A stretch of 64,000 nucleotides of DNA, from positions 4,097,501 to 4,161,500 of the forward strand of contig NZ_CP053708.1 of assembly GCF_013201075.1 (NCBI RefSeq), given 5' to 3'. Below the pieces are notes generated by a model. It made no database searches and was not told where the DNA came from. It worked only from the letters and a program-made list of their open reading frames with translations. Shown here one piece after another: positions 11,620 through 24,666 of this stretch. Positions within the stretch are counted from its first letter, which is position 1, and every line of letters begins with the position of its first letter. The stretch comes from Lichenicola cladoniae (GTDB lineage: Bacteria; Pseudomonadota; Alphaproteobacteria; Acetobacterales; Acetobacteraceae). The translations under genes and the position numbers were made by a program.

Positions 11620-12576
11620 TCAGGCGGAACCGGCCTGCATCTCGCTCCGCCACCACGCGACCGTCTCGGCCAGCCCTTCCTTCAGCCCGATCGTTGGCCG
11701 CCAGAGTTCGGCCGGAGGTTGCAGTACGCGATCGGAGCCCCAGTCGCGATACAGGATCTCGCGCGCCTTACCACGACCGAACACCGCCGGCTTTCGGGTG
11801 ATCGACGCCCAGGCATCGGTCGCCAGGCCGGCACCGAGGAAGGCGAGGTCGGGCAGTGGCTGGAACCGCGGCATCCGGCCGAACGGCAGGGCAGCGGTTT
11901 CCACGATCTCGCGCCAGCCGTAGCCGTCGGTGCGCTCGTCGGACAGCTCGTAGACGACCGCGGAAGGACCGGGGCCGCACAGGGCCACGACCGATGCGGC
12001 CGCATCGTGCGCATGGACCATCGCGATGCGTGGCTCCGGTGCGGCCGGAACCGGCACGGTCCGGCGGCTGGCCAGGCGCAGGGTGGCGATGCCCTCCAGA
12101 TCCCAAGGGCCATAGACTACGCAGGGACGCAGTATGACCCAGTTTCCAAGAGGCAGGGCCGCCTGCGTCGCCTCTTCGCCGGCGCGCTTGCTCCGCGCAT
12201 AGGCCGAGACGTGCGGGGTCCGGGCTGCCTGCGACGAAATCAGCACGAAACGCGCCGTCGGTGCGTCACGGGCGACAATCGCCGCCAGATTGGCGGTGCC
12301 GTCCCGGTTGATGGCCATGAACTCGGCCGCCCCCTTCGCCTTCACCAGGGCGGCGGCATGCACGACTACATCGGCGCCCTGCACCAGACGCGACAGCGAT
12401 CCGGGGTTGCCGAGATCGCCCGGCACCACCTCGAACCTGCAGCCGGCGAGCAATGGATGCACCGGATCGCGGCGCGCCAGCAGCCTGACCTCCCAGCCCG
12501 CCTTGCAGAGAGCCGCGACGACGTGCCGGCCGAGAAAGCCGGTACCGCCGGTGACGGCGGCGACGGGCCGGGTCAC
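11620..12576 (-). CDS. cerR: NAD-dependent epimerase/reductase of the sphingolipid cluster (CerR-like)
   Basis: The 318-residue extended SDR has TGGTGFLG at residues 9-16, VVHAAA near 75 and an active-site Ser-Ser with YARSK near 130. In Caulobacter an epimerase-annotated SDR encoded with spt, its acyl carrier and an acyl-ACP synthetase acts as ceramide reductase (CerR), reducing the 3-keto group. Here the gene is last in the operon with an acyl-AMP ligase and a ceramide-synthase-like acyltransferase, so I infer the same role. It starts with GTG overlapping the ligase stop (GTGA, 12573-12576), so translation is coupled. The symbol rests on context; a nucleotide-sugar epimerase is the alternative. 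Confidence 0.68.
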   Translation of the reverse strand: MTRPVAAVTGGTGFLGRHVVAALCKAGWEVRLLARRDPVHPLLAGCRFEVVPGDLGNPGSLSRLVQGADVVVHAAALVKAKGAAEFMAINRDGTANLAAIVARDAPTARFVLISSQAARTPHVSAYARSKRAGEEATQAALPLGNWVILRPCVVYGPWDLEGIATLRLASRRTVPVPAAPEPRIAMVHAHDAAASVVALCGPGPSAVVYELSDERTDGYGWREIVETAALPFGRMPRFQPLPDLAFLGAGLATDAWASITRKPAVFGRGKAREILYRDWGSDRVLQPPAELWRPTIGLKEGLAETVAWWRSEMQAGSA

Positions 12577-14300
12577 GCCCGACTGGCGGCCGTGAGCGAT
12601 CCTGCGAGATAGCGCTGACGGACCGCGGACCGGCTGAGCTTGCCGGACGAGGTATACGGCAGGGTGCCGGGTTGCAGCAGCACCACGCGGCCATCGAGGC
12701 CATGCTGTGCTCGGATGGTGTCGGCGATCGCGTTGGTGAGCGTCTCGCTGGTGGTCTCGTCCGAAAGCGACCGGGCCTCGGCGGCAAGGATCAGCACCTC
12801 GCGCCCGTTCTCGTCGATCGAGAAGGCGGCGACGTTACCGGTCCGTACTTCCGGCAGGGTCTCGATCGTCCATTCGAGGTCCTGCGGCCAGATGTTGCGG
12901 CCGTTGATGATGATCAGGTCCTTGGCGCGGCCGGTGATCACCAGGGCACCGTCCAGCCCGTAGCCCAGGTCGCCGGTATCGAGCCAGCCGGTGCGCGACA
13001 GCACGGCGCTGGTTTCCTCGGAGCGTCGGTCGTAGCCGAGCATCAGGCTCGGGCCGCGCACGAAGATCCGGCCGACATGGCGGGCCGGCAACGGCTCGCC
13101 CGCGTCGCTCCGGATCTCTATCTCGTGGCCCGGCAGGGGCCGGCCGCACAGGACCACGGTCCGGGCCCGGCTGTCCGCGCTGCCGGGGGCGGCTGCGATA
13201 TCCTCCTGCTCCAGCCGGTCGAGATCGATAATGTCGGTCTCGATGCCAAGGCCGATCGGCGCGAAGCTGATCGCCAGCGTCGCCTCGGCCATGCCGTAGC
13301 TGGCCAGGAAGCTGCCAGCGTCGAACCCGTGCGGCGCGAAGGCGTCGGCAAAGCCCGCCAGCACGGCCGGGCGGATCATGTCGCCGCCGATGCCGGCGAT
13401 CCGCCAGCAGGACAGGTCCAGTTCCAGCGCGCTGGCCTGGCGCTCGCGACGGGTGCACAGGTCGTAGCCGAAGCTCGGGCTGTAGGAGATGCTGGCGCGG
13501 TTGCGGGAGATCAGCGACAGCCAGAGCTGCGGGCGCCTCGCGAAATCCGCGGTCGCCAGGAAATCGACGCTGATCTGGCCGGCCATCGGGCTGAGCAGGA
13601 ACCCGACCAGTCCCATGTCGTGATAGAATGGCAGCCACGATACCGCCCGGTCGCCCGGACGGATCTGGAGCCCATGGCTCAGGATCCCGGCGAGGTTGGC
13701 CATCAGCGCACGATGCAGCACCACCACGCCGATCGGGAACCGGGTGCTGCCCGACGAGAATTGCAGGTAGGCGACGTCATCCGGGCCGGTCGACGGCATC
13801 GGCGCCCACGAGGGTACGATGTCGGCCAGTTCGGCGACGGTGGAACAGAGACGCAGACCCAGTTCGGCTGCGAGCGGCCGCAGCCAGTCGATCAGTGCAG
13901 CCGGCCCGAGCAATGCGGTGGCCCTGGCCTCGACCACCAGGCGCCGGATATGCGCCTCGTAGGTGGCGCGTCCACCGAAGGCCTGCGGCAGCGGCAGCGG
14001 GGCGGGCACCAATCCTGCATACTGGCAGGCGAAGAAAGCGCGTACGAAATCCGGGTGCGTCTCGGCAATGATCGCCACGCGTTCCGCCGGCGCCAGCCCG
14101 CGACCGAGCAGGCGACGCGCCAGGTCGAGCGACTCGTCACGCAGCACGCCATAGCGCAGCGCCGCGGTCAGGTCGCCGCGAACGGAATAGAAATTAAGGC
14201 CGGTATCGCCCTGCGCCGCATAATCGAGAGCCTCGAGTAGCGTCGGGAAGTCGCCATTGCACGGCGACAGGCCGCTGGAAGTGGGGGTGCACCCCAACAT
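12573..14300 (-). CDS. Fatty acyl-AMP ligase / acyl-ACP synthetase (ANL family)
   Basis: About 575 residues. ANL core motifs are in order: the P-loop FSSGSTRFPIGVVVLH, WLPFYHDMGLVG typical of FAALs, YGMAEATLAISF, DTGDLGY, KDLIIINGRNIWP and the catalytic Lys in YTSSGKLSR. The enzyme should activate a fatty acid as acyl-AMP and load it on a carrier protein, here probably the ACP at 24388-24666 or another. A homologous acyl-ACP synthetase is needed for ceramide in Caulobacter. The ATG at 14300 has a good GGAG site; the frame stays open to ATG 14372 and TTG 14378, which lack one. It overlaps cerR by 4 bp. Confidence 0.88.
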   Translation of the reverse strand: MLGCTPTSSGLSPCNGDFPTLLEALDYAAQGDTGLNFYSVRGDLTAALRYGVLRDESLDLARRLLGRGLAPAERVAIIAETHPDFVRAFFACQYAGLVPAPLPLPQAFGGRATYEAHIRRLVVEARATALLGPAALIDWLRPLAAELGLRLCSTVAELADIVPSWAPMPSTGPDDVAYLQFSSGSTRFPIGVVVLHRALMANLAGILSHGLQIRPGDRAVSWLPFYHDMGLVGFLLSPMAGQISVDFLATADFARRPQLWLSLISRNRASISYSPSFGYDLCTRRERQASALELDLSCWRIAGIGGDMIRPAVLAGFADAFAPHGFDAGSFLASYGMAEATLAISFAPIGLGIETDIIDLDRLEQEDIAAAPGSADSRARTVVLCGRPLPGHEIEIRSDAGEPLPARHVGRIFVRGPSLMLGYDRRSEETSAVLSRTGWLDTGDLGYGLDGALVITGRAKDLIIINGRNIWPQDLEWTIETLPEVRTGNVAAFSIDENGREVLILAAEARSLSDETTSETLTNAIADTIRAQHGLDGRVVLLQPGTLPYTSSGKLSRSAVRQRYLAGSLTAASRA

Positions 14301-14390
14301 TTCGTTCTGCTCCAAGGTGCGATCGCGATGGAGAGCAATCGTTGAGAAACCCGTATCCGCCTCCTGCGTCATCGTCAAACCAAAGGCCGT

Positions 14391-15188
14391 TCAGCCAGCC
14401 GGTGCTGTCCTGATGATGGCCTCGACCAGAATAAGGTCAGCCGGAGTGTCCACGTCGATCGCCGCTTCCGCGAACGGCATCCTGACGACCCCGAGCATGG
14501 TGCCGGTTCTACGCCCGAGCAGCCGCACCATCATGCCGAGCGTGACAAGTCGCGACATATAGGCGAGCAGGGCGACCGGGCCAACCAGCCAGGCCATGGA
14601 CAGCGGTCGTTTGCGCTCATGCTCCAGCGACCGCCAGAACTCTACTACATTCGTTGCCCTATCCGTACGGAACATGAACAGGTTGCAGCCGCTGACCCGT
14701 CCATCCCTGAACCGCAGCCAGGTGCGCCTGGTGTCCGGATAGGCCGCGAGGATGGTCTGGGCACCGGCCACGGCAGCAACGGCATCGGCCGGATCGCTGC
14801 AACGAGCCACGAACCAGGACAGCATCGACGGTGTCAGAAGGGCATGGTCCGCGGTGGTGACCAGGAGCGGCGTCCCGAACTCCTCCAGCATCGTCGCAAC
14901 CGTGCCGCTCGGTGAGCCGGCGGCGTCGCGGCCGATGGTGCCGGGCACGACGACGATCGACGCGAGCAGGTCGTCCGCACCCTGGGCCGCCACAACGATC
15001 CGGCCGATCTCCGGGCTGGCGCGCAGCGCCTGCAGCACCCGCAGCAACATCGGCACCCCGGCGACCGGCAACAGCGCCTTGTGGGCGACGCCGGCGGCGA
15101 CCGCCATCGGATCCGCCCGGCCCTCGCGGCTGCCGGCAAGCACCAGCGCAGTCAGCTTCGGCGTTTCGCCCGGATCGTCACGGCTCAC
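14391..15188 (-). CDS. MobA/IspD-like nucleotidyltransferase of the sphingolipid operon
   Basis: The 265-residue protein has the nucleotidyltransferase opening LTALVLAGSREG (residues 12-23), the conserved Lys in AAGVAHKALLPVAG, and VTTADHALLTP where MobA-like enzymes have their metal-binding Asp. A late IDVDTPADL motif is also typical of MobA/IspD-like enzymes. An unusual hydrophobic segment near residues 205-230 suggests membrane contact. It starts with GTG inside the stop codon of the acyltransferase gene (GTGA, 15185-15188). The likely job is making an activated head-group donor (CDP- or other NDP-alcohol) for the sphingolipid, but the substrate is inferred from context only. Confidence 0.75.
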   Translation of the reverse strand: MSRDDPGETPKLTALVLAGSREGRADPMAVAAGVAHKALLPVAGVPMLLRVLQALRASPEIGRIVVAAQGADDLLASIVVVPGTIGRDAAGSPSGTVATMLEEFGTPLLVTTADHALLTPSMLSWFVARCSDPADAVAAVAGAQTILAAYPDTRRTWLRFRDGRVSGCNLFMFRTDRATNVVEFWRSLEHERKRPLSMAWLVGPVALLAYMSRLVTLGMMVRLLGRRTGTMLGVVRMPFAEAAIDVDTPADLILVEAIIRTAPAG

Positions 15189-16345
15189 GTGAGCAGCGTT
15201 TTCTCATAGACCCGGTAGGTCTTGTAGTTGCGCCCGCCGACCGCCTCGGCCAGATGACGCATGGGTGCGTTGTTCTCGAGCACCCAGGAAATCTCGACCG
15301 AGGTTATGCCCATCGCGACCGCCTCGCGACGCATCGCCTCGACGATATGCAACGGCAGCAGGCGCCCGAGCAGGCTGTTGTCGAACCGCCGGCTGACGCC
15401 CATCAACGGAACCCGCGCGGACCTGACGCCCGACCGCTTCAGCCGCCACAGCAGCTTGGCCCAGCCGAACGGGAACAGTTGGCCGGACAGGTCGCGGATC
15501 GCCTCGTTCAGGTTGGGCAGGCACAGGCCGAATGCTGCCGGCACGCCATCCACCTCGGCGAACCAGACCAGCCGGTCATGCAGCAGCGGCCGCAGGGCAC
15601 GCGACATGTGCGTGACCTCCTCCTTGGTGATCGGCGCGAAGCTCCAGTTATCGACCCAGGCCTCGTTGAAGATCCCGACCAGCGCCGCGATATCGGCTTC
15701 CAGGGCATCCCAGCGCATCGGCCGCAGCGTGACGTTGGCCGGCAGGCCGCGGCCGACCAGTTTCGCCGCAGCCGGCGGCAGGGCGGCCGTCGTGTCGCAC
15801 AGGTAGGCGTAGAGGTCCTGGGCCTTCTCGTAGCCGAGTTCCCGAAGCCGCGCGTCCGCGTACGGCGGGTCGTGCGGCATCATCAGCATCGGCGGGGTAT
15901 CGAAGCCGTCGACCAGCAGGCCGACTTCCTCGTTGATCGACAGGTTGAACGGACCCTGCACGCGGCGAAGCCCGCGGGCCCGCAGCCAAGCCTCGGCGGT
16001 GCGGATCAGGGCCGAGAACACGGCAGGGTCGTCGATCGCGACCAGCATGCCGAACTGCCCGGCATCCTTGTTCGTCGACAACTCGTCCTGTTGCGCGCTG
16101 ATGCGCCCGACCACGCGGCCATCCCGCCAGGCCAGCCAGAACTCGACCTCGGCATGGCCGAAGAACGGGTTGCCCTTGGGGGTCAGGGCGGCCCGGCGCT
16201 CGGAATGCAGCGGCGGCACGTAATATGGATCGGCGCGGAACAGCCGGTCCGGCAATCGGATGAAGCGGCCGAGGTCGGCGCGGCTGCGGACCGCGACGAT
16301 CTGGATGCTGCCAGCCGCGGCCGTTCCCGCGACGGGCTGGCTCAA
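15185..16345 (-). CDS. GNAT-like N-acyltransferase, candidate bacterial ceramide synthase
   Basis: The 386-residue protein begins LSQPVAGTAAAG from a TTG that overlaps the hydroxylase stop (TTGA, 16342-16345); no ATG or GTG is available without losing conserved sequence. Residues around RADLGRFIRLPDRLFRADPYYVPPL and the WLAWRDGRVVGRISA strand match a large GNAT-like family; the C-terminus has ISWVLENNAPMRHLAEAVGG. The Caulobacter ceramide synthase bCerS, which N-acylates the sphingoid base or its 3-keto form, belongs to this kind of GNAT-like family. Its position between hydroxylase, NTP transferase, acyl-AMP ligase and reductase genes supports that assignment, which I infer and have not tested. 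Confidence 0.75.
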   Translation of the reverse strand: MSQPVAGTAAAGSIQIVAVRSRADLGRFIRLPDRLFRADPYYVPPLHSERRAALTPKGNPFFGHAEVEFWLAWRDGRVVGRISAQQDELSTNKDAGQFGMLVAIDDPAVFSALIRTAEAWLRARGLRRVQGPFNLSINEEVGLLVDGFDTPPMLMMPHDPPYADARLRELGYEKAQDLYAYLCDTTAALPPAAAKLVGRGLPANVTLRPMRWDALEADIAALVGIFNEAWVDNWSFAPITKEEVTHMSRALRPLLHDRLVWFAEVDGVPAAFGLCLPNLNEAIRDLSGQLFPFGWAKLLWRLKRSGVRSARVPLMGVSRRFDNSLLGRLLPLHIVEAMRREAVAMGITSVEISWVLENNAPMRHLAEAVGGRNYKTYRVYEKTLLT

Positions 16346-17103
16346 CTGGTCTTGCCGGGCCGCGGCGGATGGTCCCGCGGCAGGCCACCGGACAGCGTGG
16401 CGACCCACGGGAACCGTGCGGCCTCGGCACGGTCGTAGCCGAGGTTGAACACATGCGGCGAACGCTTCCGCTCGCGCGCCGACGCATAGTAGGTGCCGAA
16501 CAGGCGATCGAGCACAAACGAGGTGATCCCGAAATTGCCGTGCTCGTCCTGGAAATGGTGCGTCAGGTGGAGCTCCTTCATGCGTCGCAGCAGCCGGTTG
16601 CGCGGCTTGATGTTCAGGTGCTGGATGCAGTGGCAGAACTCGTAGACGCAGGTGATCAGCAACCCGGCGAATACCGCCGCCGCCGCACTGCCCGGACCGC
16701 CGATCAGCCAGCCGAGCGGGATCAGGATCGACAGGATGGTCGGCAGGGTGGTGAGCGGCGAGCCGAACAGCACGTCCATCCGGTGCGGATCCTGGTGATG
16801 ATCGAAGTGGATCCGCTTCCAGAGCGACGCGGTCAGTTTCGAGCGATACAGGAAACGGCTGTGCAGGATGAAGCGGTGGATGCCGTACCAGGCGGCCGGG
16901 TAGGCCAGCGCGGTGGCCACCATCGCAGCCATCGGATGCCAGGGGTCGCGGCTGATGCATGCGGCGATCACGCCGCTGATCAGCGCACCGACAAGATAGA
17001 CGTGAACGGCGGGATGGCTCGCGTAAGCTGGGACCAGATCGCGGAGCGTCATGCGGCCAAGGTCGAAGCTGCGACCGTGTTTCCGCCAGCTGGAATAGAT
17101 CAT
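16342..17103 (-). CDS. Sterol desaturase/fatty acid hydroxylase-family membrane enzyme
   Basis: The 253-residue membrane protein has the di-iron histidine clusters of the fatty acid hydroxylase superfamily: HRFILHS, HFDHHQDPH, HCIQHL and HLTHHFQDEHGNFG, spread between four or so membrane helices. Acetic acid bacteria make 2-hydroxy-acyl and phytosphingosine-type ceramides, and an enzyme of this family could place the C4 hydroxyl on the sphingoid base or the C2 hydroxyl on the acyl chain. It is the third gene of the lptFG-ceramide operon. The ATG at 17101-17103 was chosen; a TTG at 17142 would add 13 residues. The regiochemistry is inferred. Confidence 0.85.
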   Translation of the reverse strand: MIYSSWRKHGRSFDLGRMTLRDLVPAYASHPAVHVYLVGALISGVIAACISRDPWHPMAAMVATALAYPAAWYGIHRFILHSRFLYRSKLTASLWKRIHFDHHQDPHRMDVLFGSPLTTLPTILSILIPLGWLIGGPGSAAAAVFAGLLITCVYEFCHCIQHLNIKPRNRLLRRMKELHLTHHFQDEHGNFGITSFVLDRLFGTYYASARERKRSPHVFNLGYDRAEAARFPWVATLSGGLPRDHPPRPGKTS

Positions 17104-17157
17104 GGCCTTCGAGTGCAGCGCCGATCGGTTGCTGTCAAGCAAACGACACGCGGGCGA

Positions 17158-18210
17158 TCATCCGATTTCGGCCTGCTGCAGCCTGACCGCACCGGCGACA
17201 CCGAACACCAGGGTCGCGGACCAGGCGGCGACGATCGGAGGAAGCGTGCCGGCATTGCCGAGCGCCTGCAGCAATCCGGCAGCCGCCATGGCGCCGAGGC
17301 CGAGGGTCAGCACCTTCATCGTCTCGAGTCCGCTGGTGCCGGATCGCGGCAGCGCCAGCAGGAGCGGCATGGCCAGCAGCACCATCAGGAACGGGTCGAG
17401 CAGGGCCGCGATCAGGCTCTGCAACTGGGTCCGGTAGTAGGGGGCGCCATGCACGCCGATCCAGCGTCCCCGGAGGGTGGCGGATAACCGTCCCAGGGTC
17501 TGGCTGTCCGTCGGCCGGGCCAGCTCGGCCATGTTGGCCGGCAACGGCCCCTGCGGCCACCGGAGATCGGGGCGCGTCTCGGCGGTGTCGCGGTCCGGCC
17601 GATCGATTTGGACGTCGTGCAGGGTCCAGTGTCCCCCGCCATAATCGGCCGAGCGCGCATCGAGGGTCGCAGACAGGGTGCCCGCTGCGGAGCGCTGCAC
17701 GATCATCAATCCCGTGAGGCGCTTGCCGTTCGGCGACACGCCGGCGATCGCGGCGACGTCGCCGTGGCTGCGCAACCAGACCCGGTCCGGGGCCGGTGTA
17801 TCCGCCGGTGCGGTCGCGGCCCACCAGTCGGCGAAGGCGCGCTCGGTGCGGGGCGCGACCTCGTTCTGCAGCACGAATTCCAGCCCCGATACCAGCAGGC
17901 AGGCAGGCATCAGTGACCACAGGACGTGCCACAGGCTCAGACCGGCTGCCCGCATCGCAGTCGTCTCCAGCCCGCCGGCAAGCCGCATGAAGGTCAGTAG
18001 CGCGCCAAGCAGGGCGGCGAGCGGCATCATCTCGCCCAGCAGGGTCGGCAGCCGCAGGGCGACGTAGAAACCGACCCTGCCGGCGCCGCCGCGGGTCAGA
18101 ATGGCGCCGGTGCGGTCGAGCAGGTCCAGCAGCTGCAGGATCGCGGCCAGCCCGAACAGGCTCGCCAGCAGGCGGCTGAGAAACAGCTTCGACAGATAGG
18201 CGCGCAGCAT
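17158..18210 (-). CDS. lptG: LptG-family permease of an LptBFG-type lipid exporter
   Basis: The 350-residue protein has three N-terminal and three C-terminal membrane spans around a periplasmic beta-jellyroll domain, the LptF/LptG layout. MLRAYLSKLFLSRLLASLFG, PLAALLGALLTFMRLAGGLE and the coupling segment near RAAGLSLWHVLW are typical. With LptF and the ATPase LptB it would pull an outer-membrane lipid from the inner membrane. It overlaps lptF by 1 bp and is followed after 55 bp by the ceramide-modifying genes, which is unusual for lptG. It may serve LPS or sphingolipid; lptB and lptC are not in the window. Confidence 0.88.
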   Translation of the reverse strand: MLRAYLSKLFLSRLLASLFGLAAILQLLDLLDRTGAILTRGGAGRVGFYVALRLPTLLGEMMPLAALLGALLTFMRLAGGLETTAMRAAGLSLWHVLWSLMPACLLVSGLEFVLQNEVAPRTERAFADWWAATAPADTPAPDRVWLRSHGDVAAIAGVSPNGKRLTGLMIVQRSAAGTLSATLDARSADYGGGHWTLHDVQIDRPDRDTAETRPDLRWPQGPLPANMAELARPTDSQTLGRLSATLRGRWIGVHGAPYYRTQLQSLIAALLDPFLMVLLAMPLLLALPRSGTSGLETMKVLTLGLGAMAAAGLLQALGNAGTLPPIVAAWSATLVFGVAGAVRLQQAEIG

Positions 18211-19487
18211 CAGGCGCGCGGTTCAGGCTGCAGGCGACGCCCGACGCTGCGCGCGACCACACGCAAGCCGCTCTCGATCGCATCGGATGCGCGGTCGATC
18301 AGCCCGTCCCCGGCATGGAACTCGGCGCGGCGAAAGATGCCAACGCTGGCCGCGGCGAACAGAGCAAGCGCGCCCCAGAGCAGCGGCCTCGGATCGATCC
18401 CCACCGCGATGCTGAAGGACTGGGCCAGTTGCAGCGCATGGTAGTACAGCACCAGGATCAGGCCCCCGGCCACGATACGATAGGGCCGGCCGGTCCGCTG
18501 TCCGGCCAGGCCGAACGGGATTGCCAGCAGCGGCAGGATCGCCAGGGACAGCGACCTCACGATCCGGCTGTGCAGTTCACCATCCAGCACGCGCCGTGGA
18601 ACGACCGGATGCGCCTGCCGGCGGGCGGACCAGAGCTCGCCGATCGTCATCTCGCGCTCGTCGAACCCGCGTGGACGGAAGCCCGGCAACGCCAGCACGA
18701 ACGGTCGTCTCACGGTGGTGTCGGACGAGGACAGCATGGTGGTCCTGCCGTCCGGCGCCCGGTCCATCTGCTCGGGATGCGCCAGTTCCAGGAGCAGTTC
18801 GGTCCGGTCCGGCGACAGCAGCAGCCGGCCGGCAGGGGCCACGGTGATCTTCTCATGCCTATCTGCCTGGTGCTGGTAGATGAACACATGCTCCATCCGG
18901 CCGGTGACCGGATCGGACCGGTCGGTGGTGACCAGCAGGTTTCGCGAAACCCGGGTGATCTCCCCGGGCGGTATGGTGCCGTTCCAGTTTCCCGTGGTCG
19001 CCGCCAGGAATGCGGCCCGGTAGGCATAGCGCGCATAGGGCTGGACGTAGCCGTACAGGCCGAAGCCGCCGATGGCGACAAGAACGCCCATCAGCATGAA
19101 GGGCCGTCCGATCCAGCCGAGCGAGAAGCCGGCATTGCGCATCGCGTCGATCTCGCGGCCACCATCGAGCCGGGCCACCACGAGATAGATGCCGAGGAAC
19201 AAGGCGCTGGGCAGTGCCAGTCCGAGATAGAACGGGACCAGGTCGATCAGCATCCGCATGACCGACGCTGCAGGAACATCCTGGGTGGCCACGAGGCCGA
19301 ACAGCCGCAGCAGCCGTTCCAGCAACAGCGCCGGCAGCACGATCAGCAGCGTCGCGGCGAAGGGCCGCGCCAGGGATGCCAGCAGGTAGCGCCCGATCGT
19401 GCCGCCCGGACGCAGATGCACCGAGCGTGCGGAGCCGTCCGGGGCTGGAAAAGACGGCGGTGTCCGGCTGATCATACCCTGTTCCAT
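18210..19487 (-). CDS. lptF: LptF-family permease of an LptBFG-type lipid exporter
   Basis: The 425-residue protein is a little longer than typical LptF (about 370), with a Pro/Ser-rich N-terminal extension and a charged C-terminal tail. Membrane spans are visible at about residues 40-60, 85-110 and 130-155, then a periplasmic jellyroll (ISRNLLV-like VSRNLLVTTDRSD, with HVFIYQH), then three C-terminal spans. The coupling-helix region reads DAMRNAGFSLGWIGRPF. It is first in the operon that continues with lptG and the ceramide genes. ATG at 19485-19487 gives MEQGM; a second ATG at 19475 (MISRTPP) is an alternative start. Confidence 0.87.
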   Translation of the reverse strand: MEQGMISRTPPSFPAPDGSARSVHLRPGGTIGRYLLASLARPFAATLLIVLPALLLERLLRLFGLVATQDVPAASVMRMLIDLVPFYLGLALPSALFLGIYLVVARLDGGREIDAMRNAGFSLGWIGRPFMLMGVLVAIGGFGLYGYVQPYARYAYRAAFLAATTGNWNGTIPPGEITRVSRNLLVTTDRSDPVTGRMEHVFIYQHQADRHEKITVAPAGRLLLSPDRTELLLELAHPEQMDRAPDGRTTMLSSSDTTVRRPFVLALPGFRPRGFDEREMTIGELWSARRQAHPVVPRRVLDGELHSRIVRSLSLAILPLLAIPFGLAGQRTGRPYRIVAGGLILVLYYHALQLAQSFSIAVGIDPRPLLWGALALFAAASVGIFRRAEFHAGDGLIDRASDAIESGLRVVARSVGRRLQPEPRA

Positions 19488-19596
19488 GCCGGGGGGAGCC
19501 GGTCCGTCAGCACGTTCGGAGATGCTGCGATCGAGACGGAACTGTCATGGCCCCGGGATTGCAGACTGACGGGAATTGCGCAAACTGCCATGCATC

Positions 19597-20160
19597 ATGA
19601 AAGCTTTCGAGATGCCGCAAACCCTGGCGAATACGTTGTCCCGGCGAGCGACCCATCCTGCCCGGGATCATCTGCTCCCGGCGCTGATCGTTGCGTGCGG
19701 CCTGGCGGCGTCCAGCGTGGGCCTTCCCGGTTCGGCCTACGCTGCCGAAGAGACCGCAGTTGCCTGCCCGGCTGCGGCCGGCGGGGCGGCGGGTACGCAA
19801 CTGCATATCGCGCTGACCGGGCTGCGGAACGACGACGGGACCGTTTCGGTGACGCTCTACGGCGAAAAGCCGGCAGCGTTCATGGCCCATAGAGGCTGGA
19901 TCGCCCAGGCGCGGGTCACACCGGCAGGCCGGCAGGCGGAGGCGTGTTTCTTGGTGTCCGGCCCGGGGACCTATGCCGTTGCCGTCTATCACGACGCGAA
20001 CAACAATCATCATTTCGACCGCACCTTTCTGGGCTTGCCGGCCGAGGGCTACGGCTTCTCGAACGACGCACCGACGCCGGTCGGGCCGCCGCCGTTCAGT
20101 GCCGCGAAGTTCGCCATACAGCCCGGCGGCACGGCGATCGCGATACACCTGCGCTACTGA
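19597..20160 (+). CDS. DUF2141 domain secreted protein
   Basis: The 187-residue protein has a signal peptide (hydrophobic LLPALIVACGLAASSVGL followed by AYA-A cleavage near residue 48). A DUF2141 domain follows, with LHIALTGLRNDDGTVSVTLYG, the conserved YAVAVYHDANNNHHFD block and the FGFSN-like YGFSNDAPTPVGPPPF motif. DUF2141 proteins are small periplasmic beta-sandwich proteins without a settled function. The ATG at 19597 begins MKAFEMPQ. It is divergent from lptF and converges with the metallophosphoesterase, overlapping its stop by 7 bp. I cannot assign a role; its place in the lipid locus may be coincidental. Confidence 0.82.
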   Translation: MKAFEMPQTLANTLSRRATHPARDHLLPALIVACGLAASSVGLPGSAYAAEETAVACPAAAGGAAGTQLHIALTGLRNDDGTVSVTLYGEKPAAFMAHRGWIAQARVTPAGRQAEACFLVSGPGTYAVAVYHDANNNHHFDRTFLGLPAEGYGFSNDAPTPVGPPPFSAAKFAIQPGGTAIAIHLRY

Positions 20161-21089
20161 CCCGGGCCTGCTGGTCCGGCGCTATCGATCCGGAGCGTCC
20201 AACTGCCGGCTGCGCGGAACTGTCCGGATGACGGGTCGTAGCGCCGCGCCGTGGTGGTGAGCCGCCAGCCCGCTCCATCGCGCTCGACCCCATGCAGATG
20301 CCATCGCGCGAGTTCCGGCCGGGCCAGGCCGGCGGACGCGGATGGCAATCCGATGACCGGGATCGGTCCGGCCGGGCCTGGGAGAAACGCCAGGCGGGAT
20401 ACGTGGTGATGCCCGTGCAATACCAGCTCGGCGCCATGGCGTCGCAGCAGGCCGGCCAGGCCCGAGCGGTCGCGCAGCGCCTTGCGCCGGCCGCCCTCGC
20501 CGATCACCGGCGGATGGTGGATCAGGACGACGCGGAACAGGCCATCCCGTGCAGTCTGCTGCAGCCAGGCCCCCGCCTGTAGCAGCTGCTGCGGGCCGAC
20601 GCGGCCGGAGGCGAGGAATAACGGCGTCGGCACGGCGGACGACAGGCAGATCAGCGCCAGCGGACCGCGGCGGCGCAGAAATGGGAATCGCGGCGCAGCC
20701 CCTGGACCGGGGTCGGCATCGCCACGCATCCAGGGTTCCCATTGCCCGATCCCATCCGGCCACGGTGCCGGCACCGTGCAGTCGTGGTTTCCCGGCACGA
20801 CGGAGACGCGATCCGGCTCCCCAAGCCGCTCGAGCCAGCATCGTGCGGCGGCCATCTCCGCAGGTGCGGCCAGGTTGACCAGGTCGCCGGTGACCGCGAG
20901 ATGATCCGGCGCCTGCGCTTCCAGGTCTGCCAGCAGCGCCTCGAGCGGAACCGTCGTCGAGATCAGGCGACGCTTGCGCCGCCATGATAGAAGGGCCAAC
21001 TCCTGCTTTGGCCTGAGATGGAACAGCGGCGGCATCCTGCCGGGCAGCGGCAGATGCGGATCGGTGAGATGGGCAAGACTGAAGGTCAC
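20154..21089 (-). CDS. Calcineurin-like metallophosphoesterase
   Basis: The 311-residue protein has all metallophosphoesterase motifs in order: LTDPHL (residues 6-11), VTGDLVN, VPGNHD, LIHHPP and LHGHHHVS. Start chosen as GTG 21089 (MTFSLAHLTDPHLPLPG), placing the first motif at the usual distance from the N-terminus; the frame stays open to an ATG at 21173 that overlaps the start of the divergent kinase gene. Enzymes of this subfamily act on phospholipids (for example LpxH/UDP-diacylglucosamine-type) or nucleotides. Divergent placement beside a lipid kinase and cytidylyltransferase suggests a lipid-phosphate or CDP-lipid substrate, which is inference. Confidence 0.87.
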   Translation of the reverse strand: MTFSLAHLTDPHLPLPGRMPPLFHLRPKQELALLSWRRKRRLISTTVPLEALLADLEAQAPDHLAVTGDLVNLAAPAEMAAARCWLERLGEPDRVSVVPGNHDCTVPAPWPDGIGQWEPWMRGDADPGPGAAPRFPFLRRRGPLALICLSSAVPTPLFLASGRVGPQQLLQAGAWLQQTARDGLFRVVLIHHPPVIGEGGRRKALRDRSGLAGLLRRHGAELVLHGHHHVSRLAFLPGPAGPIPVIGLPSASAGLARPELARWHLHGVERDGAGWRLTTTARRYDPSSGQFRAAGSWTLRIDSAGPAGPGQ

Positions 21090-21171: not shown

Positions 21172-22218
21172 ATGCCGGATGGAAGCATCGGCGGGTTCGA
21201 ACCGATACGCTCGCAAGGGGACATTCCCCTCGCTCGACGCATCGGGGTCATCCGCAACCCGCGCAGTTTTGGCAATCGGCAGACAGCTGCCGCGGTCGAG
21301 CCAGGAGCTGCGCCCGGGGTCGTGCTGACGCAGCCGTCCGATCGCCAGTCCCTTCTCGACACGCTGCACGGGTTTGCCGCGTCCGGCATCGACCTCGTGG
21401 TGGTGAATGGCGGCGATGGAACATTGCGCGACGTGATGAGTGCGCTGCTCGCCGCGTATCCTGACATGCTGCCGGAACTGGCGATCCTGCGGGCCGGGAA
21501 CACCAATCTTGCCGCGCGAGTGCTGGGCATCAACGGGAGCGGGCCGCAGGCGCTGGACCAGTTGATCGAAGCCGCACGAACCGGCCGCCTCCGACGCCAG
21601 CGCTGTGCGTTCCTGGAAGTCGCCTGGATCAACCAGCCATCGCGACCGCCATTGCGCGGCTTCTTCCTGGGCGCCGGCGCGTTTGCCGATGCCAAGCAGA
21701 TCGCCGACCACCAGATCCACCGGCGCGGCGTGCACCAGGGAGCAGCCGTCGGCCTGACGCTGGCGACCACCATCCTGCGCGTGCTGACCGGTCGCGGGCC
21801 CATACACCGCGGCACGCCGATATCGACCGCCATCGACAATCGCCCGGCCCGCGACGGGCACAAGTTCCTGTTGCTGGTCACCACCCTGGACAGCCTGATG
21901 CTCGGTCTCTGGCCCTTCTGGGGTTCGAAATCCGACTCCGGCCGCCTTACCTGGCTCGAAATCGACGCGCCGCACCGTTTCCTGCCAGTGGCACTGCCCG
22001 CAATCGTCATCCGCCAGCTCCGTGACTGGATGCCGGGCCGGATCGCCCGGGCCGTGTCGGCGATCGCGTCGGGCTGGGGCTACCGATCCGGCCGCGCCAC
22101 GCGTCTTGCCGTCAGGCTGGAGCGACCGTTCGTGCTGGATGGCGAGTTCTTCGAGCCCGGCCCCGAGGGCGTGCTGCTGACGTCGCCCGGACATGTGACG
22201 ATCGTCATCCCGGATTGA
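21172..22218 (+). CDS. Diacylglycerol/ceramide kinase-like lipid kinase
   Basis: The 348-residue protein belongs to the DAGK catalytic family: IGVIRNPRSFGN at residues 24-35 and the nucleotide-binding NGGDGTLRDVMS at 79-90, followed by ILRAGNTNLAARVLG. The C-terminal part has the LERPFVLDGEFFEPG segment of YegS/DgkB-like lipid kinases. A YegS-like enzyme encoded beside the ceramide genes in Caulobacter is a ceramide kinase. Here the gene is close to spt and starts a two-gene unit with a Tam41-like enzyme, so ceramide-1-phosphate is the most likely product; diacylglycerol or another lipid remains possible. Its stop overlaps the next start (TTGA). Confidence 0.82.
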   Translation: MPDGSIGGFEPIRSQGDIPLARRIGVIRNPRSFGNRQTAAAVEPGAAPGVVLTQPSDRQSLLDTLHGFAASGIDLVVVNGGDGTLRDVMSALLAAYPDMLPELAILRAGNTNLAARVLGINGSGPQALDQLIEAARTGRLRRQRCAFLEVAWINQPSRPPLRGFFLGAGAFADAKQIADHQIHRRGVHQGAAVGLTLATTILRVLTGRGPIHRGTPISTAIDNRPARDGHKFLLLVTTLDSLMLGLWPFWGSKSDSGRLTWLEIDAPHRFLPVALPAIVIRQLRDWMPGRIARAVSAIASGWGYRSGRATRLAVRLERPFVLDGEFFEPGPEGVLLTSPGHVTIVIPD

Positions 22219-23150
22219 CCGGCGCCCTGGCATCGATCCTGTCGGTCGAGCTCGACCGGCCCGCACCGGAGGCGGTGCAAGCCCTGGTCGATGAAATCCT
22301 GCGATCCTCCGGCCCGGTCGCGGCAATCCTGTTCTATGGCTCGTGCCGGCGCAGCGACGATCCGTCCGGACTGTTCGACCTGTATGTGCTGCATGACGGC
22401 CATCGGCGCTTCCATCGCCGAATCGTGCCGGCGATCCTGAACCGGCTGCTGCCGCCCAACGTGGTGCTGGTCCGGACCAGGCTGGGTGACCACCAGGTTC
22501 GCGCCAAGGTGGCGATCCTGTCGCGCGGGCAGTTCGCCCGCCGGATGCGACCCGCGTCGATCGACACCACGCTCTGGGCGCGCTTCTGCCAGCCGGTGTC
22601 GCTGGTCCATGTGGCGGATGCGCCGACCCGCTCCTGGGTGGAAGCGACGCTGGCAGATGCGGCACGGACTGCTGCATCGTGGGCCGTGCGGTTCGGGCCG
22701 GATCGCGGCACCCCGGCGCAGTTCTGGCAGGTGCTGTTCGCCCGCACCTATGGCGCCGAGTTGCGTCCCGAGCGGACCAATCGCGGCGGGCTGATCTACG
22801 AGACGAACGCGGCTTGGTTCGACCGGGTCCTGGTCCAGTCGCTCCACGATCTCGGGCTGGATGCCTCGGACCACGAGGGGCGCCTGTGCCCGGCGATGAA
22901 GCGGCCACTTGGCCTGGAGCTGGACTGGGCCATCCGGCGCGTCCTGGGCCGTTCGCTCAACCTGCTGCGCCTGATCAAGGCGGCCTTTACGTTCGAGAAT
23001 GGTGCGGACTACATCGTCTGGAAGATCGGGCGACATACCGGACGAACGCTCGATCTCAGCCCATGGCAGCGCCGGCACCCGCTCCTGTCGGCACCGCAGC
23101 TGCTCTGGCGGCTGCGGCGGGGAACCGGGTCAGTCGGCAGCAGCGTATAG
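22215..23150 (+). CDS. Tam41-like phosphatidate cytidylyltransferase homologue
   Basis: The 311-residue protein begins at TTG 22215, overlapping the kinase stop codon. Residues 38-60 contain FYGSCRRSDD and FDLYVLHDGHRRFH, the Gly-Ser and Asp motifs of the nucleotidyltransferase fold as arranged in mitochondrial CDP-DAG synthase Tam41. Further Tam41-like blocks are LPPNVVLV, QVRAKVAILSR and LWARFCQPVSLVHV (matching the 'GRLHKPV' region). The second Asp of the fold is replaced by Tyr in DLYV. With a lipid kinase directly upstream I infer that it uses CTP to turn a lipid phosphate into a CDP-lipid, possibly CDP-ceramide. Its 3' end overlaps spt by 21 bp, tail to tail. Confidence 0.65.
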   Translation: MTGALASILSVELDRPAPEAVQALVDEILRSSGPVAAILFYGSCRRSDDPSGLFDLYVLHDGHRRFHRRIVPAILNRLLPPNVVLVRTRLGDHQVRAKVAILSRGQFARRMRPASIDTTLWARFCQPVSLVHVADAPTRSWVEATLADAARTAASWAVRFGPDRGTPAQFWQVLFARTYGAELRPERTNRGGLIYETNAAWFDRVLVQSLHDLGLDASDHEGRLCPAMKRPLGLELDWAIRRVLGRSLNLLRLIKAAFTFENGADYIVWKIGRHTGRTLDLSPWQRRHPLLSAPQLLWRLRRGTGSVGSSV

Positions 23151-24386
23151 CTGGTCGGTCACGCCCGGCACGACGCCCAGTTCCTGGCCGATGGCACTCA
23201 TCGCGTCGATCGCCCGGTTGATCTGTTCGGTGCTGTGCGCGGTGCTCACGCTGGTGCGGAGCAGGGACTGGCTCGAGGGGGTTGCAGGCGGAAGCGCCAG
23301 GTTCACATAGATCCCCTGATCGAGAAGCATGTTCCAGAAGCGCACCGCGATCTCCGGATTGGCCAGCCGGATCGAGACGATCGGGCTGACCGTGGGGCCG
23401 AGCGCGAAGCCCGCCGAAGCCAGGCCGTGATGCAGATGTTCAGCATTCCGGCCGAGGCGATCGCGCAGCCCCGGCTGCTCCTCGATGATTTCTAGCGCGC
23501 GGGAGACGCCGGCAACCACCGACGGCGGCAACGACGCGCTGAACATGTAGGAACGGGAGGCCAGACGGAGCAGCTCGAAGTCCGGCACGTCGGACGCGCA
23601 GAAGCCGCCGACTCCGCCCAGGCTCTTGCTGAAGGTGCCGACGATGAACTCCACGTCGTCCTCGACGCCGGCGACCTCGATCAGGCCGCGGCCACGCTTG
23701 CCGAGCACGCCGAGCGAATGCGCCTCGTCGACCAGGAGGTAGGCGCCCATCTCCTTCTTGACGGCAACGAACTCACGCAGCGGCGCGATGTCGCCCAGCA
23801 TGCTGTAGATGCCTTCGACGACGATCAGGTTCTGGCTCGGCGCGCCCAGGCTGGCGACGTCCGGATGCGGTTCCTGACGTTCCTTCAGCAGCTTCAGCCG
23901 GCGATAGAGGTCCTCGGGGTCGTTGTGGCGGAAGCGCGTCACCTGCGCGCCGCTGAGGCGTGCACCATCGTAGATGCTCGCATGGCTGTCGGCATCGAGC
24001 AGCAAGTTGTCGTCGCGATTGACCAGGGCGGAGAGGGTGCCGAGGTTGGCCTGGTAGCCGGTGGTGAACAGCATGGCCTGCCGGCGGCCGAGGAAGCTGG
24101 CGACCTGTGCCTCGAGTGCCGCATGGCCCCCATAGGTCCCGTTCGCGATCCGCGAACCGGTCGTGCCGGTTCCCTCGGTCTCCAGCGCGAGCACCGACCG
24201 GCTGATACAGCTCGGGTCGAACGTCAGGCCCAGGTAGTTGTTGGTTCCCAGCAGCATGACGGAGCGACCGTCGAGCCGCGCCTCGGTCGGAGACAGGATC
24301 TCGTCGAACGCGACCGTGAACGGGTTGCGACCGCCATCGCGCAGGCGTGCATAGGCCAGTTTAAGGCCGGCGTGTTTTCCCAGCAT
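23130..24386 (-). CDS. spt: Serine palmitoyltransferase (alpha-oxoamine synthase)
   Basis: The 418-residue PLP enzyme has the alpha-oxoamine synthase signature: GTNNYLGL at 47-54, the stacking His135 in DADSHASIYDGA, DEAHSLGVLG at 220-229 and the PLP lysine Lys254 in GTFSKSLGG. Its closest families are serine palmitoyltransferase, KBL and BioF. The acyl carrier protein gene lies 1 bp upstream, an arrangement diagnostic of bacterial Spt that uses acyl-ACP rather than biotin or threonine pathways. It condenses serine with a fatty acyl thioester to 3-ketosphinganine, the first step of sphingolipid synthesis. ATG at 24384-24386 was chosen over an upstream extension overlapping acp. Confidence 0.9.
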   Translation of the reverse strand: MLGKHAGLKLAYARLRDGGRNPFTVAFDEILSPTEARLDGRSVMLLGTNNYLGLTFDPSCISRSVLALETEGTGTTGSRIANGTYGGHAALEAQVASFLGRRQAMLFTTGYQANLGTLSALVNRDDNLLLDADSHASIYDGARLSGAQVTRFRHNDPEDLYRRLKLLKERQEPHPDVASLGAPSQNLIVVEGIYSMLGDIAPLREFVAVKKEMGAYLLVDEAHSLGVLGKRGRGLIEVAGVEDDVEFIVGTFSKSLGGVGGFCASDVPDFELLRLASRSYMFSASLPPSVVAGVSRALEIIEEQPGLRDRLGRNAEHLHHGLASAGFALGPTVSPIVSIRLANPEIAVRFWNMLLDQGIYVNLALPPATPSSQSLLRTSVSTAHSTEQINRAIDAMSAIGQELGVVPGVTDQLYAAAD

Positions 24387-24387
24387 T

Positions 24388-24666
24388 CTATTCGAGCCCT
24401 GAAGGGGAGTGTGCAATCGGCTGCGTTTCCAACAACTTCGCCAGGTCGCCAACGGTTTCTACACCGGAGAGCCGGTCGATCGGAATGATTGTGTCAAACC
24501 GTGTCTCTAATTCCATGACGAAATCCATCACGGCCAGCGAGTCGAGCTTCAGGTCACGTGTGATGCTCGTCTCCTCGGTAATCGTTCCGGCGTAGGTCGG
24601 AGGCAGTACGTTCATCGACCTCAGGATGTCCGAGATCTGCTCGATAATGCCACTATCAACGGACAC
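24388..24666 (-). CDS. Acyl carrier protein dedicated to sphingolipid synthesis
   Basis: The 92-residue protein is an ACP with the phosphopantetheine site LKLDSLAVMDF (Ser43) and an acidic helix II (MELETRFD). It differs from the housekeeping AcpP in its longer N-terminal helix and Ser/Pro-rich tail. Translation begins at GTG 24666, preceded by GGAGGAAACGTGC, a strong ribosome site; ATG is absent nearby. It is encoded 1 bp before spt, like the ACP beside Caulobacter spt, and should deliver the acyl chain to Spt, probably charged by the ligase at 12573-14300. A possible promoter lies at 24708-24737. Confidence 0.9.
   Translation of the reverse strand: MSVDSGIIEQISDILRSMNVLPPTYAGTITEETSITRDLKLDSLAVMDFVMELETRFDTIIPIDRLSGVETVGDLAKLLETQPIAHSPSGLE

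Follow-up and report, generated by a model that had tools for sequence, protein, structure and literature searches.

What do the two overlapping genes at positions 21172–23150 of the window do, the window being the 64,000-nucleotide stretch of contig NZ_CP053708.1 of Lichenicola cladoniae analysed here (genome size 6.06 Mb)? The first encodes a lipid kinase and the second a nucleotidyltransferase-like protein, and the original prediction read them as a route from ceramide via ceramide-1-phosphate (C1P) to cytidine diphosphate (CDP)-ceramide. We consider it fairly probable that the pair is cpgB–cpgC of a ceramide phosphoglycerate (CPG) cluster and acts via C1P and CDP-ceramide.

The kinase gene (21172..22218, plus strand) runs from ATG 21172 to the TGA at 22216–22218 and encodes 348 amino acids. 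The GGDG of its product begins at residue 80, inside NGGDGT, and the match to Pfam DAGK_cat (47.4 bits, cut-off 23.6) bears out the predicted DAGK-family kinase; the score with the NCBIfam YegS/BmrU model, 36.2 bits, is far under the cut-off of 118.65. The protein has a single cysteine, which makes the CxxxCxxC motif of eukaryotic ceramide kinases impossible. The second gene (22215..23150, plus strand, 311 amino acids) opens at TTG 22215, and its start shares the letters TTGA (22215..22218) with the kinase stop, as had been predicted. The serine palmitoyltransferase gene (spt) was also rightly placed beside the pair: it lies at 23130..24386 on the minus strand (ATG 24386 is preferred, the open reading frame extending from TTG 24452), converges on the pair, and its product scores 613 bits with the NCBIfam serine palmitoyltransferase model NF047599 (cut-off 500). 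Profile matches across the cluster place the kinase within a ceramide/CPG-type cluster.

The kinase–CpgC arrangement is conserved across the named loci, i.e., the best 80 of 438, whose flanks (up to 10 kb) were searched by tblastn with the window proteins as queries (E ≤ 1e-6), a set that is skewed to Acetobacteraceae and whose members are not independent of one another; genes more than 10 kb away or beyond the end of a contig would escape. In 74 of these loci, a gene for a window-like kinase precedes the CpgC-like gene in the same orientation; six have none. The two genes overlap in 52 of the 74, are 0–30 bases apart in 19, and 73–154 bases apart in three. A survey of 240 genomes of the class yielded CpgC-like relatives in 28 (E ≤ 1e-5); among the 26 loci with a whole CpgC-like gene, read together with up to 1.5 kb of flanking sequence, the kinase adjoins it in 23 and spt in 18.

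The Caulobacter region CC_1168–CC_1152, as described in PMC11324152, comprises the ceramide genes aasR, cerR, acpR, spt, and cerS (CC_1165–1162 and CC_1154), CC_1161, CC_1160 (the ceramide kinase), CC_1159, which has a Pfam domain of CDP-alcohol transferases, the phosphoesterase CC_1158, CC_1157, LptF2/LptG2 (CC_1156/1155), and CC_1153 and CC_1152, both resembling nucleotidyltransferases. If the locus numbers give the gene order, each Caulobacter cluster gene apart from 1159 and 1152 has its counterpart in place in the window; a hydroxylase gene is additional, and aasR–cerR have moved. Since the cluster is laid out like CC_1165–CC_1153, the window pair corresponds by position to CpgB (CC_1160, CCNA_01218) and CpgC (CC_1161, CCNA_01219) of Caulobacter crescentus. 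Like CpgB, which phosphorylates ceramide and has no CxxxCxxC motif (PMC10331486), the window kinase is a DAGK_cat protein with GGDG encoded beside cpgC, and, as in Caulobacter, the CpgC-type gene lies between spt and the kinase gene, adjoining both.

Both CC_1160 and CC_1161 are needed for CPG in Caulobacter, CpgC being genetically required for the conversion of C1P to CPG (PMC11324152). This step is a gap in the pathway biochemistry, the mechanism of CpgC being called “yet unidentified” in a passage of PMC12275187, with which papers of 2025 and 2026 agree. Olea-Ozuna et al. (2024; PMC11324152) described CC_1161 with an InterPro CDP-diacylglycerol synthase domain and proposed that it makes a nucleoside diphosphate-activated ceramide. 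The idea of ceramide activation is hence already published, and the window pair adds a tie at the genome level and a variant without the second phosphoglycerate module. The original prediction knew of no established bacterial CDP-ceramide pathway; our full-text literature search found CDP-ceramide in no paper.

Is the second protein an enzyme that could activate ceramide in this way? Its nearest named relative is from Acidisoma (55% identity), followed by Roseomonas-type records, all of which we take to be Acetobacteraceae; the counterpart in a Caulobacteraceae metagenome-assembled genome (MAG; L099, the L and G numbers being our own handles) is 41% identical. Residues Y41, G42, D55, K98, R123, Q126, P127, E182, R184, K255, and K270 are invariant both in alignment A1 (26 CpgC-like sequences including that of the window) and in A4 (51 sequences, i.e., that of the window and 50 of 53 dereplicated ones, with L084, L086, and L112 omitted). 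The Pfam family Tam41_Mmp37 (PF09139, cut-off 24 bits) matches two of the 26 A1 members, L010 at 28.8 bits and L023 at 23.2, so that L010, a 35%-identical relative, is the only one over the cut-off; one of the 51 A4 members shows a match, at E 0.07. Sequence searches of the PDB with A1, A4, L026, and L010 brought up no Tam41 entry, and the window protein has no NCBIfam match at E ≤ 0.01.

The AlphaFold2 model of the window CpgC built from A4 (predicted local distance difference test, pLDDT, 91.2; predicted template modelling score, pTM, 0.88) gave 18 matches in a Foldseek search of 350,542 PDB chains (E ≤ 0.001). Ranks 1–5 are Tam41 structures (E 6.7e-8 to 5.0e-7), including a complex of Firmicutes Tam41 with cytidine triphosphate (CTP) and Mg; ranks 6–16 are aminoglycoside nucleotidyltransferases, the first fold other than Tam41 (E from 1.9e-5), and ranks 17–18 are HalB. 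The fold comparison with Tam41 proposed as a check thus returned a nucleotidyltransferase fold with Tam41/TAMM41 (S. pombe 6ig4, 6ig2; Firmicutes 7ecd) closest in the PDB, and the predicted likeness holds at the fold level; the Pfam Tam41 model does not match the window protein. Two further features may be shared with Tam41, a single invariant Asp after GS and a basic C-terminal tail: the last 35 residues of the CpgC-like proteins in the 80 named loci carry a net charge of +3 to +10 (median +6), and the model has a helix at 289–306; the domains and the basic C-terminal helix of SpTam41 are described in PMC7018664. In contrast to Tam41, to which the window protein is 13% identical, the CpgC-like genes are found in ceramide clusters of genomes already holding a CdsA-type gene. 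Judging from the model, CpgC is Tam41-like by fold and not a filed Tam41 member.

The original prediction doubted the catalytic competence of the protein, as an aspartate appeared to be replaced by Tyr in DLYV. Position 57 is Tyr in all 51 rows of A4 and in 24 of the 26 rows of A1 (the remaining two have C and F), and Asp55 is D in every row of both alignments. Tam41 is said to retain just one of three acidic residues (PMC11646218), and therefore a lone invariant Asp, followed two positions later by a residue that is not acidic, is what one would expect; D55 and Tyr57 agree with that passage. We considered Tyr57 as the mark of a dead enzyme and ruled this out, the Tyr being family-wide and Tam41 likewise lacking the other acidic residues, so the doubt falls away.

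Which lipid would such an enzyme activate? A diacylglycerol kinase coupled to a CDP-diacylglycerol synthase could salvage diacylglycerol via phosphatidic acid to CDP-diacylglycerol for ordinary phospholipids, in keeping with the DAGK_cat domain of the kinase and with CDP-diacylglycerol synthases being the nearest solved structures of its partner. The genome data speak against it. All 28 genomes with a CpgC-like gene have a CdsA-type gene (PF01148 over the cut-off), and a ceramide-synthase-like gene (called at E ≤ 1e-20) is present in 27 of them vs. five of the 212 genomes without (Fisher 1.5e-29, kinship ignored), the one exception being an 82%-complete genome. Moreover, the window's own genome encodes elsewhere a second, stronger DAGK_cat kinase (101.9 vs. 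49.8 bits in the genome search), and the Caulobacter counterpart kinase, as noted above, acts on ceramide. The ceramide-synthase tie, the CdsA-type genes, and the second kinase make a sphingolipid the likelier substrate compared with phosphatidic acid, and we regard diacylglycerol salvage as very improbable. Taken together, the fold, the cluster context, the ceramide-synthase tie, and the presence of CdsA-type genes favour C1P as the substrate, and the predicted order ceramide, C1P, CDP-ceramide stays the best reading in our analysis and is partly supported, its kinase step being known from Caulobacter. In two genomes of the same family as the window (G026, G158), the ceramide-synthase-like gene is more diverged (32–33%) than in the other 30 matching genomes and is remote from the CpgC-like gene.

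In the pathway that we favour, the kinase would use ATP to convert ceramide to C1P, as shown for its Caulobacter counterpart; the Tam41-like protein, which is probably attached peripherally to the membrane, would then transfer cytidine monophosphate (CMP) from CTP to C1P, yielding CDP-ceramide and pyrophosphate; and a CDP-alcohol phosphotransferase encoded outside the cluster would exchange CMP for glycerate or phosphoglycerate. The end product would be CPG, without a second phosphoglycerate. Five CDP-alcohol phosphotransferases are encoded in the own genome: L031 is over the PgsA cut-off, L032 is PssA-like and below the cut-off, and L033, L034, and L035, which pass no cut-off, are candidates for the final head-group transfer.

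Alternatively, CpgC, while having a nucleotidyltransferase fold, might leave C1P unactivated: it might couple C1P straight to glycerate or phosphoglycerate, or have some other phosphate as its substrate, along the lines of the earlier Caulobacter scheme (Zik et al., via PMC11324152). Caulobacter continues to make CPG when CC_1152, CC_1153, or CC_1158 is mutated, and can do without CC_1159 for it (PMC11324152), which would follow if CpgC finished the job alone; the wording of PMC12275187 on the CpgC mechanism, quoted above, also leaves room for this. On the other hand, a passage of PMC11324152 calls direct attachment “energetically not very favorable,” and the nearest folds are CTP:lipid-phosphate cytidylyltransferases, so we think this scheme unlikely, albeit deserving serious attention. 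Returning to CDP-ceramide, we hold, by a narrow judgment in its favour, that CpgC is the first CDP-ceramide synthase, of the Tam41 type, and that bacteria attach sphingolipid head groups via a nucleotide-activated ceramide in the manner of CDP-diacylglycerol, this lineage having a minimal version with one phosphoglycerate and a putative CDP-ceramide:glycerate phosphotransferase. If so, CDP-ceramide would be a lipid intermediate new to the literature searched, and C1P would join phosphatidic acid as a lipid substrate of enzymes with the Tam41 fold.

How many phosphoglycerates the lipid would carry depends on CpgA and CpgD, the latter synthesizing CDP-glycerate (PMC12275187). Genetically, CC_1159 and CC_1152 are tied to CPG2, and CC_1160/1161 to CPG (PMC11324152, PMC12275187). 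Neither CpgA nor CpgD was found in the window by tblastn; the place that CpgA (CC_1159) has in Caulobacter is vacant. Among the named loci, a CpgA-like CDP-alcohol phosphotransferase (called by tblastn at E ≤ 1e-8 with seven example queries of about 365–415 amino acids, two of them Pfam-tested as PF01066) is present in 33, usually between the phosphoesterase and the kinase, and was not found in 47. A CpgD-like gene accompanies it in 18 loci, all of them with CpgA, and, within the flanks covered, is found in none of the 47 without. In 44 of these 47, phosphoesterase and kinase are both present, their BLAST matches lying 33–422 bases apart; where CpgA is present, the gap is 1164–1387 bases in 17 of 21 measurable loci, the other four being rearranged. 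In the own genome, the CpgA profile gave two generic matches (33 and 22 bits) and tblastn with CpgA at most 35% identity over 85 residues, i.e., no close CpgA; unlike the clusters with the module, the window lacks it, and its own genome has only distant relatives. We think a second phosphoglycerate module elsewhere in the genome unlikely. Given the window without CpgA and CpgD and the genetic ties of CC_1159/CC_1152, CPG alone, without CPG2, is the end product predicted for the window organism; a comparable inference has been published for Zymomonas (PMC11324152). Loci without CpgA and CpgD, such as the window and many of its relatives, point to organisms with fewer candidates for the missing transferase. 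In six loci (L088, L089, L090, L099, L100, L101; five Burkholderiales-type records and one Caulobacteraceae MAG), a CpgA-like gene is the immediate upstream neighbour of the CpgC-like gene, a window-like kinase being absent from between the two, and thus CpgC accompanies either CpgA or CpgB.

Several observations weigh against the CDP-ceramide pathway or parts of it. The silence of the literature on CDP-ceramide is one. In Caulobacter, CpgA is dispensable for CPG (PMC11324152), and it is absent here, leaving the third step without a known gene; the ceramide build-up in the CC_1161 mutant is merely moderate (PMC11324152). The correspondence to CC_1160/CC_1161 rests on position and on the Caulobacteraceae MAG; a primer pattern meant to locate C. 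crescentus among 385 genomes yielded four matches, each with 2 mismatches and none close to a gene of the cluster. Even at E ≤ 10, no Pfam family matches the window CpgC, and PF09139 is over the cut-off in none of 299 genomes of the phylum (one weak match), some of which (G026, G158, G037) carry a CpgC-like gene. The structural likeness to Tam41 is moderate (template modelling scores 0.45–0.54, root mean square deviation 5.0–8.9 Å, at the low identity given above), and hence the relation is one of fold, probably also of mechanism, without family membership. Finally, the own genome encodes a full-length distant CpgD relative, L124 (32% over residues 3–239, E 6.4e-20), because of which the loss of the second module falls short of proof.

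Divergent from the kinase lies a metallophosphoesterase gene in the CC_1158 position (20154..21089, minus strand, start chosen at GTG 21089), and further away an NTP (nucleoside triphosphate) transferase gene of the MobA/IspD fold in the CC_1153 position (14391..15188, minus strand), recognized by profile and structure searches. One could imagine a lineage-specific scheme in which C1P is activated by a nucleotide other than CTP, or the product is used together with these two proteins. The NTP transferase is found in 42 and the phosphoesterase in 44 of the 47 named loci without CpgA, and the former has an IspD/TarI fold in the window; Caulobacter mutants in CC_1153 and CC_1158, as said, still make CPG, and the folds nearest to CpgC include CTP complexes. 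Such a scheme seems improbable to us. The gene at 14391 was also considered as CpgD and rejected: its nearest structures are TTHA0179, then IspD and TarI, while the CpgD-like gene of L099 has as its top structure match 4jd0, the entry reported for CpgD in PMC12275187. As the structure matches differ, it was assigned the CC_1153 place by position only. Alignment A5 holds 28 of 30 NTP transferases (L079 and L098 omitted) and that of the window; the gene is readable through to its stop in 61 of the 80 named loci.

On the other side of the pair, an acyl carrier protein gene (24388..24666, minus strand, profile matches) lies beyond spt. Beyond the phosphoesterase lie a DUF2141 protein gene in the CC_1157 position (19576..20160, plus strand, profile match) and, all on the minus strand, two LptF/LptG-type permease genes in the CC_1156 (18210..19487) and CC_1155 (17158..18210) positions, a fatty acid hydroxylase-family gene (16342..17142, profile match), a GNAT-type gene in the position of the ceramide synthase CC_1154 (15185..16300, start not fixed), the NTP transferase gene, and, by profile matches, an aasR-like fatty acyl-AMP ligase gene (12573..14378) and a cerR-like NAD-dependent epimerase/reductase gene (11620..12576). 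Labels such as cerS are given by position in the cluster. In the 80 named loci, the kinase is found in 75, the phosphoesterase and spt in 70 each, the NTP transferase in 69, the carrier protein in 67, and a ceramide-synthase-like gene in 33. Anionic sphingolipids help Caulobacter to survive without lipopolysaccharide (PMC12275187).

The hydroxylase-family gene, flanked in the window by lptG-like and cerS-like neighbours, is present in 55 of the 80 named loci (41 of the 47 without CpgA vs. 14 of the 33 with it). Elsewhere in the own genome, an NTP transferase gene (L126) is directly followed by the CDP-alcohol phosphotransferase gene L033 (G000:C1:202197-203443); the best NCBIfam match of L126 is an inositol-1-phosphate cytidylyltransferase fusion (124 bits, cut-off 580), and the pair is built like CpgD/CpgA, the similarity being distant only. 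Beside L124, at about 369.5–371.3 kb of G000:C1, a 599-amino acid open reading frame (L125) combines an NTP transferase with a phosphoenolpyruvate mutase (TIGR02320, 390 bits, cut-off 320); together with the adjoining second NTP transferase it forms a phosphonate head-group locus, perhaps for a phosphonolipid.
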